A stretch of DNA of 33,387 nt, taken from assembly GCA_016234735.1 (NCBI GenBank), contig JACRAN010000203.1:1-33387 (forward strand). The letters run 5' to 3'. The number at the start of each line of letters is the position of its first letter. Within the stretch, counting starts at the first letter, position 1. The position numbers and the translations under genes are program-made. This stretch comes from Bacteroidota bacterium. GTDB lineage: Bacteria; Bacteroidota; Bacteroidia; Chitinophagales; Saprospiraceae. The notes beneath the pieces are model-generated. The model made no database searches, was not told the origin of the DNA, and saw only the letters and a list, made by a program, of their open reading frames with translations. Positions 18,958 through 22,961 of the stretch are shown one piece after another.

Positions 18958-18988
18958 TTCGTCAGTCAGATAATATTGTCTATTTTTG
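18958..18988 (+). promoter_or_regulatory. Candidate parA promoter
   Basis: TATTTTTG at 18981-18988 matches the -7 consensus. A TTC at 18958-18960, 20 nt upstream, is a one-base variant of the -33 TTG. The flank ATTGTC..TATTTTTGCCC recurs before the CDP-alcohol transferase gene at 30645-30663. Confidence 0.5.
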
Positions 18989-19042: not shown

Positions 19043-19807
19043 ATGGGAAAAATCATCTCGCTATTGAACCACAAAGGAGGCGTCGGCAAGACCACGAGTG
19101 CCATCAACATCGGTGCCGGCCTCGTGGAGTTGGGTAAAAAAGTTTTACTCATCGACCTCGACCCACAGGCTAACCTCTCCCTTTCGTTAGGTATTCCGCG
19201 TCAACCCAACACGATTTACGAAGCACTTCGGGGCGAGTCAGAACTGGAACCCTACACCGTCAGGGAAGGATTGGATGTCGTCATGTCCACCCTCGATCTT
19301 TCGGGCGCAGAAATGGAATTGATCAACGAAGCGGGCCGTGAATATATCCTGAAGGAGTTGTTTGAACCGGTGAAAGACGACTACGATTTCATCATCATCG
19401 ACTGCCCGCCGTCGCTGGGCCTGCTGACGCTGAACGCACTGGGGGCCAGCGATTATGTGTACATTCCGCTGCAAACGCAGTTTCTGGCGCTCCAGGGCTT
19501 GGCCAAAATCAAGCAGGTCGTGGACAAAGTGAAGTTCCGCCTGAACAAAAAACTGGAAATTGGCGGGGTCATTGCCACGATGTACGATTCCCGAAAAATC
19601 CTCAACCGGGACGTGGTGGATACCATCCGAAAATATTTTGGTGAAAAAGTTTTCGACACCCTCATTCGGGACAATGTCGCACTGGCCGAAGCACCGTCGC
19701 AGCGGAAAGACATTTTTTACTACAACGCCAGCAGCATCGGCGCACAGGATTACATGAGCCTTTGCAAAGAAATACTGACCCGATTAGAAGTGGAAGAACA
19801 AGTTTAA
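19043..19807 (+). CDS. ParA-family partitioning/positioning ATPase
   Basis: This 254-residue deviant Walker-A ATPase dimerises on ATP and binds DNA non-specifically, so that partner-driven hydrolysis positions cargo. Start is the ATG at 19043 (MGKIISLLNHKGGVGKTTS): KGGVGKTT at ~10-17 is the signature-lysine P-loop, DLDPQANLS (~37-45) is switch I (A'), and DFIIIDCPPSLGLLTLNAL (~112-130) is Walker B. The length is that of short ParAs without an N-terminal helix-turn-helix. The upstream in-frame ATG at 18986 falls inside the promoter box. The next gene, 22 nt downstream, encodes the putative partner rather than a classical ParB. No parS-like sites were recognised. Cargo (chromosome, plasmid or protein complex) is unknown. 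Confidence 0.92.
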   Translation: MGKIISLLNHKGGVGKTTSAINIGAGLVELGKKVLLIDLDPQANLSLSLGIPRQPNTIYEALRGESELEPYTVREGLDVVMSTLDLSGAEMELINEAGREYILKELFEPVKDDYDFIIIDCPPSLGLLTLNALGASDYVYIPLQTQFLALQGLAKIKQVVDKVKFRLNKKLEIGGVIATMYDSRKILNRDVVDTIRKYFGEKVFDTLIRDNVALAEAPSQRKDIFYYNASSIGAQDYMSLCKEILTRLEVEEQV

Positions 19808-19829
19808 CTCACACCCAGCACCTGTCATT

Positions 19830-20357
19830 TTGAGCAAAAAGAAATTCACGGACGGACTCGAAAGCCTCTTTTCCTACGACGACAGCAAGGAAAGCGGGCA
19901 GGGCACTACGTTCCTCGAAGGGGCTAACGCCGACGAAGCGAAATCCAAGCCTGCCGTGAACCGCCCTTCTTCTCGCAAAACATTTACCACCGACCTCGAC
20001 TCGCTCCTCCACGAAGCCATGCAAGAAACCTTCGAGGAACAAATCCTGGAGCGGGAAGCGGCCTCTGCCGCTGCTTCGGGCACCAAGGCGCAGGCTTTCC
20101 ACCAGCAGACCCACCGCCGCAGGCCGATGAGTGGCCTTGACATGCTCATCCGGCGGACCGTGGAACGGGGTGCTGTCGAAGAAGACCAAGTGACGGGCAC
20201 ACGTCGGCTCACAGTGACGTTCGACAAGGAAAAGCTGAACAAACTCAAAACCATTGCCCGCATGGAAAAAGCCTACCTCAAGGACATCCTCGGCGACATT
20301 GTGGCCGAGTACATCCGCCGGTATGAAAAAGTGAAGGGCAACGTCGAGGAGTTGTGA
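19830..20357 (+). CDS. ParA partner with three ParB-like boxes and a ribbon-helix-helix-like C-terminus
   Basis: This 175-residue protein starts at a TTG (MSKKKFTDGLESLF). Three boxes recur at regular 46-47-residue spacing: KKFTDGLESLFS (4-15), KTFTTDLDSLLH (50-61) and RRPMSGLDMLIR (98-109). They resemble the ParA-activating N-terminal box of ParB proteins (pattern GLGxGLxALF). Linkers are low-complexity and acidic/Ala-rich. Residues ~125-168 (RRLTVTFDKEKLNKLKTIARMEKAYLKDILGDIVAEYIRRYEK) suggest a ribbon-helix-helix: one strand then two helices. It lacks the ParB/Srx CTPase domain. With the adjacent ParA it forms a two-gene module. I infer a multivalent ParA-stimulating adaptor that binds DNA or another cargo through the RHH end. 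Confidence 0.8.
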   Translation: MSKKKFTDGLESLFSYDDSKESGQGTTFLEGANADEAKSKPAVNRPSSRKTFTTDLDSLLHEAMQETFEEQILEREAASAAASGTKAQAFHQQTHRRRPMSGLDMLIRRTVERGAVEEDQVTGTRRLTVTFDKEKLNKLKTIARMEKAYLKDILGDIVAEYIRRYEKVKGNVEEL

Positions 20358-20367
20358 TGTTTTTAAA

Positions 20368-20424
20368 CTTGCCACAAAAAAAGGGTGCGAACCGACCGGT
20401 CCGCACCCTTTTTTTTGTGGCAAG
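20368..20424. terminator. Bidirectional terminator between convergent genes
   Basis: A long stem pairs 20368-20389 with 20402-20424 (one bulged T). It contains GGGTGCG/CGCACCC, flanked by A7/T8 and the GCCACA/TGTGGC base. T-runs follow the GC core on either strand, so it can end both the parA operon and the minus-strand thioredoxin operon. Confidence 0.9.
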
Positions 20425-20441: not shown

Positions 20442-21602
20442 TTATTTCCGCTTGATTTTTTCAATCAGGGCTTGGGTTTCAGTGTAATCTTCGCCGCTGG
20501 CCTTGGCCAGTTCGATGGCCTGGTTGGCGGCTTTCAGGGCCTTGCCTTTTTTGCCCAGCTTGTAGTAAAGTGAGGCAACCGTGTCGGTGTTGGCGTAATT
20601 TTTATCCATTTTCACCGACTGTTTTGCCCATTTCAAAGCGTATTTCAGCTCCTTTTTTCCGTCCACGGCTTCGTAAAACAGCCAGGCCATTTCGTTCAGC
20701 ACGGTCCAGTCTTCCGCCGGGAATTTTTTGAAGTAGGCATTGGCCGCTTTCGCAAAATTCTTCCAATCCTCCCGCTGGGCGTAGAAGCCCATTTTCAGTT
20801 GCCCTGACATTTCCTCCGCCCGGTCGGGGTAGGTTTTGGCGTAGAGTGCCTCCACTTTTTTCAGGTCGGCCTCCGTTTCGGCATGGGTGATGGTGTTTTG
20901 GACCATCTCGTCCACTTTCCCGGTGACGGCCTGCTGGCCGAATTTTTCCTCAAAAACCTTGCGGTTGTTGAGCAGGTAATCCGCCATTTTGGTGTCCAGG
21001 TCGCTCACCATTCGGAAAACGAACTCCAGGTTTTCATCGGTGCCCCAGTCTTTTTGCGTGGCCAGATATTCGTCGGCGACCTGGGCGTAGGTGCCGTCCA
21101 TCGCATCGTACTTAGCGAGGGCGAGGTTGTGGAGCAGTTCCAGGGAGCGGTCGCCCGCCTCGTACTGGGAATTGATGGAGCCGATGTTTCGCTTGGGGTC
21201 AAGTGCCGCCTCGCCGAGGCCGATGAGCAGGTCGGTGGTTTGGTAGCCAACCGCCCGATGCACCACATTGCCTTCCGGGTTGATGAAGAGCAAGGTCGGG
21301 TAGGCCTGAATGCCAAACTCACCGGACAGACCGATGCCCTCGCCCTTTTCCATGTCCATTTTTACGTTCACAAATTTGGCGTTGAAAAAATCGCCGGTTT
21401 CTTTTTGGGTGAAAACATCTTTCGCCATTTTCTTGCAGGGGCCGCACCATTCGGCGTAGGCATCCATGAAGATGAGCTTGTCTTCTTTTTCGGCTTTCGC
21501 CAACAGTTCCTTCCAGGTTCCCTTGGTAAACTGGATGCCCTGGCCGAAGGTGTTGCTGCCCATCAGCAAAGCGAAGGCCAGCAAAATCAGGTATTTTTTC
21601 AT
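20442..21602 (-). CDS. Thioredoxin-fold exported protein with a TPR-like C-terminus (paralogue 2)
   Basis: This 386-residue protein starts at the ATG at 21602 with a signal peptide (MKKYLILLAFALLMGSNTFG). The thioredoxin fold (~22-150) carries W52-C53-G-P-C56 in DAYAEWCGPCKK and the cis-Pro in QAYPTLLFI. The C-terminal ~230 residues are helical and repeat-like (ALKWAKQSVKMDKNYANTDTVASLYYKLGKKGKALKAANQAIEL), i.e. TPR. It is probably a periplasmic disulfide reductase or isomerase coupled to a protein-binding scaffold. It shares the same architecture and much sequence with the upstream gene, from which it probably arose by tandem duplication. An inverted repeat lies in the gap between them. Confidence 0.85.
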   Translation of the reverse strand: MKKYLILLAFALLMGSNTFGQGIQFTKGTWKELLAKAEKEDKLIFMDAYAEWCGPCKKMAKDVFTQKETGDFFNAKFVNVKMDMEKGEGIGLSGEFGIQAYPTLLFINPEGNVVHRAVGYQTTDLLIGLGEAALDPKRNIGSINSQYEAGDRSLELLHNLALAKYDAMDGTYAQVADEYLATQKDWGTDENLEFVFRMVSDLDTKMADYLLNNRKVFEEKFGQQAVTGKVDEMVQNTITHAETEADLKKVEALYAKTYPDRAEEMSGQLKMGFYAQREDWKNFAKAANAYFKKFPAEDWTVLNEMAWLFYEAVDGKKELKYALKWAKQSVKMDKNYANTDTVASLYYKLGKKGKALKAANQAIELAKASGEDYTETQALIEKIKRK

Positions 21603-21621
21603 GGTTGGATGATTGGGGAGT

Positions 21622-21684
21622 GATTGCTTCATTGTTGGATTGCTGAATTGTTATGCACAACAACAATGAAACAATGAAGCAATC
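21622..21684. repeat. 15-bp inverted repeat made of 8-nt units
   Basis: GATTGCTTCATTGTT (21622-21636) is the exact inverse of 21670-21684. The left side is also a run of four 8-mers of pattern ATTGYTnn at 21623-21654. Flanking TGGGG (21614-21618) and CCCCA (21687-21691) extend the hairpin. It lies between the two paralogous thioredoxin genes; see the heptamer-repeat findings. Confidence 0.75.
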
Positions 21685-21692
21685 CACCCCAT

Positions 21693-22859
21693 TTAACTTT
21701 CAAGTTGTTGGATGAAACGTTGCACCTCCTGCTCGGCAGGAGGCCCGGCCGTTTTGGCCATTTCGAGGGATTTGTTGGCGGCTTCGAGTGCCTGTTTTTT
21801 CTTGCCGTTTTTGTGCAGGATTTCAGCGTAGGTCAGGTAAAAATGATAGTTGTTGCCTTTTTCTGCGGCTTCTTTGGCGTACTTCTCGGCCATTTTCATG
21901 CACTTTTCGTCGGCAGAAAAATTGTTGGCAATGTCCGTGGCCAACTTGTGCAGGCCCTTGGCATCGCCTTTGGCCACGTTTTTTGCGTAGGCATCGCAGG
22001 ATTTGCCAAAGTTCTGGGCATCCTTCGCCGCTTTGAAGTAATCAAAATCGGCTTTGGCGGCAAATGCTGCCGCTTTTTCGGGGAAGTTTTCCTTCATCTT
22101 GGTTTTCGCTTCCGCCAGCAGTTCCGGCGACTGGTATTCGACGGCTTTCTTGGCCGTGTTGGTGCAAGCCAGTTCGATGCGGTCGCGCACGGCCTGCAAG
22201 CCCACGAGCATCCCGATTTCCTTCTGGTTTTTCACCAACAGGCCAAAAATGCGGGAGTCGGCCTCCACCGCCGCTTCGTGGATGAAGCGCAGGTTGAACT
22301 CCGTCGTCAGGTCCTGCTGGGTGCGCAGGTACTCGTTGGAGATGGCGAGGCTCGGTTTGCCCGATTGATTGAGCGCCTTCACGTAGTTGTAAATGAATTC
22401 GGGGTCGCGCTTGCCTTTTTCGTATTCGGCGGCGTACCCCCGGCTGTAATCGACCTTGCCGAGGGCCATTTCGCCCTGGCGGAGCAGACCGTTCACGTCT
22501 TGCCCACCCACGATTTTGTGGATGATTTCACCATCTCCACCGATAAAAAACAGCGTCGGGTAGGCGCTGACCGGGTATTTTTTGCGGAGCGACACGCCCT
22601 CGCTTTCCTCCATGTCCACTTTCAGGTTGATGAAATTTTTGTTGAAATACTCCCCGACGGATTCGTCTTTGAAGGTCGTGGCGGCCATTTTCTTGCAGGG
22701 GCCGCACCACTTGGCGAAGGCATCCATGAAGATGGGCTTGCCGGTTTTTTCCGACTCTTCGAGCGCCTCGTTGAAGGTGCCGTGAAAAAACTCGATGCCT
22801 TGCGCCTCCAGCCGGAGCGCCAGGAACACTGCCAGGAACAAGGAAAATGCTGATTTCAT
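21693..22859 (-). CDS. Thioredoxin-fold exported protein with a TPR-like C-terminus (paralogue 1)
   Basis: This 388-residue protein starts at the ATG at 22859 (signal peptide MKSAFSLFLAVFLALRLEAQ). The thioredoxin domain holds the C52-G-P-C55 active site in FAKWCGPCKKMAATTF and the cis-Pro segment SAYPTLFFI. The helical C-terminus ends in a TPR-like unit (NYHFYLTYAEILHKNGKKKQALEAANKSLEMAK). It closely parallels the downstream paralogue in domain order, length and the GIEFFHGTFNEALEE / GIQFTKGTWKELLAK start. A redox protein of the periplasm is expected; the substrate is unknown. It lies 102 nt downstream of the TPR lipoprotein gene on the same strand, probably one operon. Confidence 0.85.
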   Translation of the reverse strand: MKSAFSLFLAVFLALRLEAQGIEFFHGTFNEALEESEKTGKPIFMDAFAKWCGPCKKMAATTFKDESVGEYFNKNFINLKVDMEESEGVSLRKKYPVSAYPTLFFIGGDGEIIHKIVGGQDVNGLLRQGEMALGKVDYSRGYAAEYEKGKRDPEFIYNYVKALNQSGKPSLAISNEYLRTQQDLTTEFNLRFIHEAAVEADSRIFGLLVKNQKEIGMLVGLQAVRDRIELACTNTAKKAVEYQSPELLAEAKTKMKENFPEKAAAFAAKADFDYFKAAKDAQNFGKSCDAYAKNVAKGDAKGLHKLATDIANNFSADEKCMKMAEKYAKEAAEKGNNYHFYLTYAEILHKNGKKKQALEAANKSLEMAKTAGPPAEQEVQRFIQQLES

Positions 22860-22961
22860 GTGGACAAGTTTTATTTTGAAGGGCAAAGTAAAGCCATAAA
22901 CAATTGACATGCCCGGAATGACTGTCCGGGCAGGGAGTTTCAACATTTTTTTAACTTAAAC

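Follow-up and report, generated by a model that had tools for sequence, protein, structure and literature searches.

Why should a ParA ATPase be paired with a protein that carries three ParB-like boxes ahead of a ribbon-helix-helix (RHH) domain, and what might such a pair position? The question is raised by two adjacent genes in a window of 33,387 nucleotides, the whole stretch of DNA that was analysed, from a member of the Saprospiraceae (contig JACRAN010000203.1). The first product matches Pfam AAA_31 (E 2.9e-59) and has the ParA fold without an N-terminal HTH. The partner gene follows on the same strand after a gap of 22 bases, and its product matched no Pfam family; starts other than ATG are common in this gene, TTG or GTG being preferred at 25 of 35 homologous partner loci. 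The promoter-like element upstream (Table 1) has the form TAnnTTTG, which we take to be the Bacteroidota -7 promoter consensus, and the genes flanking the pair are ordinary chromosomal ones (prolipoprotein transferase, ferritin, thioredoxins). Two adjacent thioredoxin-domain genes on the minus strand (20442-22946) are similar in length, were placed in one cluster and are probably tandem duplicates.

Table 1. Features of the parA/partner locus, with positions in the window
Feature	Position	Strand	Description
Promoter-like element	18981..18988	+	TATTTTTG (TAnnTTTG); 62 bases 5' of the parA start; conserved in the genus alignment
parA	19043..19807	+	ATG start; 254 aa ParA ATPase; deviant Walker A KGGVGKTT
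Partner gene	19830..20357	+	TTG start; 175 aa
Box 1	19836..19871	+	Residues 3-14, KKKFTDGLESLF
Box 2	19974..20009	+	Residues 49-60, RKTFTTDLDSLL; runs on into a conserved acidic helix (predicted 52-81)
Box 3	20115..20159	+	Residues 96-110, RRRPMSGLDMLIRRT; divergent; like GLDSLIQST of Bacteroides plasmid partners
C-terminal RHH domain of partner	20199..20333	+	Residues 124-168
Terminator-like inverted repeat and T run	20376..20415	+	3' of the operon; 19-nt arms, 95% complementary

The original prediction of a conserved two-gene ParA module was borne out by genome context. Homologues of the partner were found in 29 of 60 relatives, comprising all 14 members of the genus (window included), 15 of 23 from other genera of the family and none of 23 from the rest of the order, and a partner profile search recovered 42 of 248 genomes of the order, every one of them in the same family. 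Named records with the partner were from Saprospiraceae, with one from Chitinophagales (6 loci). At the scale of the phylum 18 of 392 genomes matched, 15 of these lying outside the family and matching weakly across the RHH end; at the 16 such loci that were read, a ParA was present in the same stretch at five, and the partners had at most one N-terminal box by eye. With the single protein as query, no copies were detected in viral contigs.

Adjacency is nearly complete, with parA adjoining the partner at 40 of 41 loci. In the exception, a genome of two contigs (G269), the operon is split and a module-type ParA (75% identity) lies ~1.7 Mb from the partner (L094, L175), so that each is found without the other beside it. 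Searching 14 partner-less genomes of the family with the ParA gave no module-type copy (12 had only a match of 42-47%, and two had none). The ParA and its partner are present or absent jointly, and both persist where the operon has been split. In G269 the chromosomal-type ParA is likewise well separated from ParB (0.78 and 1.76 Mb), and both par operons of this genome are split.

Of the 29 genomes with the module, 27 have a ParB, and the genome of the window has a separate, complete canonical parAB, its sole ParB_N match being on a different contig from the module. The origin is therefore already served by a system in these genomes. A conserved chromosomal position was considered and rejected, as the distance between module and ParB was ~3.4 of 7.5 Mb in one genome (G195), 1.4 of 8.4 Mb in another (G200) and 0.7 of 4.3 Mb in G269, with no pattern.

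The C-terminus of the partner is an RHH and not the ParB clamp, as had been proposed. A partner profile matched ParG (PDB 1p94, E 1.6e-4) across the RHH, helices were predicted at residues 133-146 and 150-169 with pLDDT >90, and neither a ParB_N/CTPase domain nor an HTH, as in a chromosomal ParABS partner, was found. RHH chains were also matched by VIA-align at Z 4.4-6.6, values by which ParG-like and other RHH proteins are indistinguishable, and Foldseek, a weak guide here on its own, gave a best E of 0.49 (ParG) with nothing at or below 0.001. With an RHH domain encoded by the gene that adjoins parA, the module is a ParA/RHH partition pair of known type, with the three-box partner as its new feature. 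Among the open papers searched we found none on a multi-box RHH partner of ParA or on the Saprospiraceae pair.

The three predicted boxes are all present, their anchors (F6, F52 and P99) being 46 and 47 residues apart. We assessed them across 58 homologues (59 were aligned, and the one-box protein L103 was omitted) and found three boxes in all 58, which sets this 175-aa protein apart from the short partners with a single tail motif. Mean column information was 2.81, 2.48 and 2.56 bits for boxes 1, 2 and 3, 2.36 bits for the RHH and 0.96, 0.74 and 0.93 bits for the three linkers. By this measure all three boxes are no less conserved than the RHH and much more so than the linkers. Codon comparison of the window with eight members of the genus gave 53 synonymous and 14 non-synonymous changes in box 2 and 52 and 19 in box 3, while linker 1 varied freely (71 and 98). 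In the same comparison the opening 15 codons of the partner gene (19830-19875) were nearly frozen at the DNA level, with the TTG/GTG start retained; codons of box 1 were identical in 89 cases, synonymous in 14 and non-synonymous in one, as against ~50 synonymous changes in each of boxes 2 and 3. This near-frozen start is perhaps a start-region signal.

How far the boxes resemble one another was examined using profiles of each, with shuffled sequences as the reference (family-wise p<0.05). The box 2 profile detected box 1 in all 58 proteins and the box 1 profile detected box 2 in 47, and by their sequences these two are clear repeats of each other. Box 3 was detected in nine proteins by the box 1 profile and in four by the box 2 profile, while its own profile detected box 1 in 33 and box 2 in 22, which points to a divergent motif weakly related to the other two. 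What it resembles instead is the sole box that partners from Bacteroides-type plasmids carry (GLDSLIQST, GLDSLIQPT).

The boxes had been described as activation boxes of the GLGxGLxALF type found in ParB. Their hydrophobic residues (i, i+4, i+7, i+8) have the spacing of L11, L15, L18 and I19 in Myxococcus xanthus ParB; the last three are retained in every box of all 58 homologues, and the full set of four in 58, 57 and one of the 58 for boxes 1, 2 and 3, respectively, the first hydrophobic being absent from box 3. A basic residue at the central i+2 position was found in only one, two and two of the 58, and the basic residues of the boxes are instead placed ahead of the motif. In M. xanthus ParB the central R13 contributes little to ParA binding, yet ATPase stimulation requires it (PMC12462528). 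At i+5 related ParBs mostly have Arg, whereas the boxes have an acid (47, 47 and 57 of 58).

We also built a profile from 23 related ParB N-termini out of 31 ParA/ParB loci, the other eight being dropped as unmatched by the pattern used to find ParB. It exceeded shuffles for box 1 in 9% of partners, for box 2 in 0% and for box 3 in 3%, and so failed to recover the boxes as significant ParB motifs in single proteins. The proposed match to ParB N-termini therefore stands for the hydrophobic spacing and not for profile significance, and the case for the boxes is carried by spacing, conservation in the family and plasmid kin. Since all three boxes of the partner lack the central basic residue, and the ParB profile misses boxes 2 and 3, the label of activation box was dropped, and we describe the boxes by their spacing as ParB-like, docking-like motifs.

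These results bear on whether box 1 alone docks on ParA, with boxes 2 and 3 binding other things (self-association, another client or the RHH). The ParB profile ranked box 1 first most often (33 of 58 partners, against nine for box 3 and none for box 2), box 1 occupies the position at which one-box plasmid partners carry theirs, a long predicted helix continues box 2, and box 3 is divergent. However, the mutual match of boxes 1 and 2 is well above shuffles, box 3 is similar to the lone box found in the plasmid partners of Bacteroides, which stand beside their own ParAs, and the spacing and the i+5 acid are common to all boxes. We consider docking by box 1 alone rather unlikely, and favour three docking motifs per chain.

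A matching site on the ParA is largely preserved. We mapped the ParB-peptide pocket from M. xanthus ParA, with positions numbered by reference to the D60A site of the PDB chain, onto 61 module ParA rows (54 distinct). Y81, E117, L150, L152 and L155 were retained in all 61, E82 and L192 in 60 each and D110 in 56, and by this mapping the module ParA retains most of the pocket. Three changes are fixed, with L187, a position where 23 of 28 chromosomal ParAs have Ile/Leu, replaced by Lys in all 61, and, near the pocket, E176 replaced by Gln and T184 by Val. The Lys at L187 and the acid at i+5 of the boxes may represent a charge swap that separates two par systems in one cell. A caution is that six of seven plasmid ParAs share the Lys at L187, while the i+5 residue of their partners is N, S, A or D. 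In sum, the module shares with chromosomal ParABS the spacing of the ParA-binding motif and most pocket residues, while its partner differs from ParB in having no ParB_N, CTPase clamp or central basic residue.

DNA binding by the ParA itself is less direct to read. R238 of M. xanthus ParA is required for nonspecific DNA binding; its equivalent is A, S or T in all 61 module ParAs and is also non-basic in seven of seven plasmid ParAs. The basic residues R209 and K185 are invariant close to this position in module ParAs. Because of the replacement at R238, and though these two lie nearby, binding of the module ParA to the nucleoid is something that we infer.

The origin of the pair is suggested by its closest relatives. 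The module ParA is 67% identical to plasmid ParAs of Flavobacterium and Tenacibaculum and 46% to its own chromosomal ParA, and in our tree, where bootstrap is not fully settled and some branches are long, module ParAs form one clade (99/97) beside plasmid ParAs (fork 84/81) and apart from chromosomal ParAs. The plasmid relatives (L113-L116, L118, L169-L172) encode short RHH partners with a single box, one of them annotated as plasmid partition protein ParG. Pairs from Bacteroidota plasmids (Flavobacterium pA5BP1, Tenacibaculum, Adhaeribacter and Bacteroides p5482) resemble the module in their ParA (57-67% identical) and in having the partner gene just 3', with an N-terminal box and C-terminal RHH; they differ in being plasmid-borne, with one-box partners of ~85-110 aa and, in some, periodic repeats. 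The best reading of these relationships is that the module arose from Bacteroidota plasmid partition pairs, or from an ancestor common to both, and is now chromosomally fixed, the ParA-docking motif having multiplied within a plasmid-type ParA/RHH module.

More distant systems share the architecture. ParF/ParG of plasmid TP228 likewise has an RHH partner with a flexible, ParA-activating tail, but ParF is much further removed from the module ParA (phmmer E 1.6e-12, where chain 8ray_B gives 1.5e-64) and ParG is a 76-aa protein with a short tail. The delta/omega system of pSM19035 also combines a ParA with an RHH partner, and omega carries one short activating tail per chain. To activate its ParA, the pSM19035 RHH partner requires at least four contiguous parS repeats (PMC9499535).

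In the window we found no centromere or operator repeats. Likewise, word enrichment across 36 regions upstream of parA gave no shared repeat, words of the TAnnTTTG type alone being clearly shared. Among 60 loci, periodic repeats (z ~3.5 or more) occurred at ~6 of 52 module loci and three of eight plasmid-type loci, a modest contrast in which the repeats are mutually different and that at L119, one of the plasmid cases, consists mostly of simple AAT units. Strong and mutually unlike tandem repeats were seen upstream of parA at L099, L085 and L097 and between the genes at L018, those at L099 having 18-nt units (z 15).

The cargo may instead be a protein, as in McdAB-like positioning, with the RHH merely autoregulating the operon or dimerising the partner while ParA positions an assembly encoded elsewhere. 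The scarcity of centromere-like repeats at most module loci, the promoter as sole shared upstream element and the coexisting ParABS would all fit such a role. Yet no third gene is conserved beside the pair across 41 loci, whereas ParA systems for protein cargo are often near their cargo genes (PMC10241942), and the nearest relatives of the pair are plasmid DNA partition pairs. We judge a protein cargo to be unlikely; descent points to DNA, and together with the RHH it suggests a DNA cargo, a site for which was not found in the regions searched. The module could also be a plasmid partition cassette that was left behind or is resident and that serves some other end, for instance to keep out incoming plasmids of its own par type by incompatibility. 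This view would suit the kinship of the ParA to plasmid ParAs and the presence in G257 of a further, one-box pair on a plasmid-like contig, but is very improbable given family-wide retention with ParA and partner present or missing together, purifying selection on the boxes and RHH, and extra boxes that it leaves unexplained.

Our preferred reading, to which we give a probability of roughly 60%, is a chromosomally fixed ParA/RHH module in which an RHH dimer on DNA offers three docking motifs per chain and its DNA is moved or held in place. It draws, at the level of sequence, on the conserved pair, the RHH, three ParB-spaced motifs, the conserved pocket and plasmid ParA kinship. The RHH dimer would bind DNA, and its flexible N-terminal tails would present six ParA-docking motifs per dimer, where plasmid relatives have one per chain. 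These motifs could hold nucleoid-bound ParA-ATP dimers at their edges, in the ParB-type pockets, and a single chain or dimer could supply the two motifs that fill both. ParA would be tethered and then, with its ATPase presumably stimulated, released, and the RHH-bound DNA would be moved or held. Each ParA dimer of M. xanthus may require two ParB peptides, and to gather several ParA-binding tails M. xanthus ParB needs a closed clamp (PMC12462528) and the pSM19035 RHH protein needs DNA repeats (PMC9499535). By analogy, a three-motif tail could replace DNA repeats in gathering motifs, for which the repeat-poor module loci are suggestive only, because five of eight plasmid-type loci are likewise without repeats. 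Counting against the preferred reading are the lack of a centromere at the loci searched and of a central basic residue, the replacement of R238, the change of L187 to Lys and the weakness of box 3.

A bolder version, which we offer tentatively, is that valency has shifted from centromere to protein. Two motifs of a six-motif RHH dimer would together occupy the paired pockets of a single ParA dimer in cis, capturing and triggering ParA with neither an iterated centromere nor a clamp closed by CTP, and the recoded contacts (pocket Lys and i+5 acids of the boxes) would insulate the module from the ParABS of the same cell. A partner family whose single chains carry three motifs, set against plasmid relatives with one box, amounts to a natural experiment on valency in ParA systems. 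It is also a case of a plasmid-type partition pair that appears to have become a long-lived chromosomal module of one bacterial family alongside canonical ParABS. With its paired charge changes where the two proteins would dock, the module opens partner specificity to direct test.

Two further observations concern related pairs. G257 has a typical module as well as its one-box ParA/RHH pair (L103, G257:C11), and the 10.9-kb plasmid-like contig that carries the latter also has helicase-like and recombinase-like genes, as read from their translations. In another family of Bacteroidota (f38; L124, L125, L135 and L138) a ParA is accompanied by an RHH protein whose N-terminal box, KKTFKDFNPA..FIS, is of another kind.
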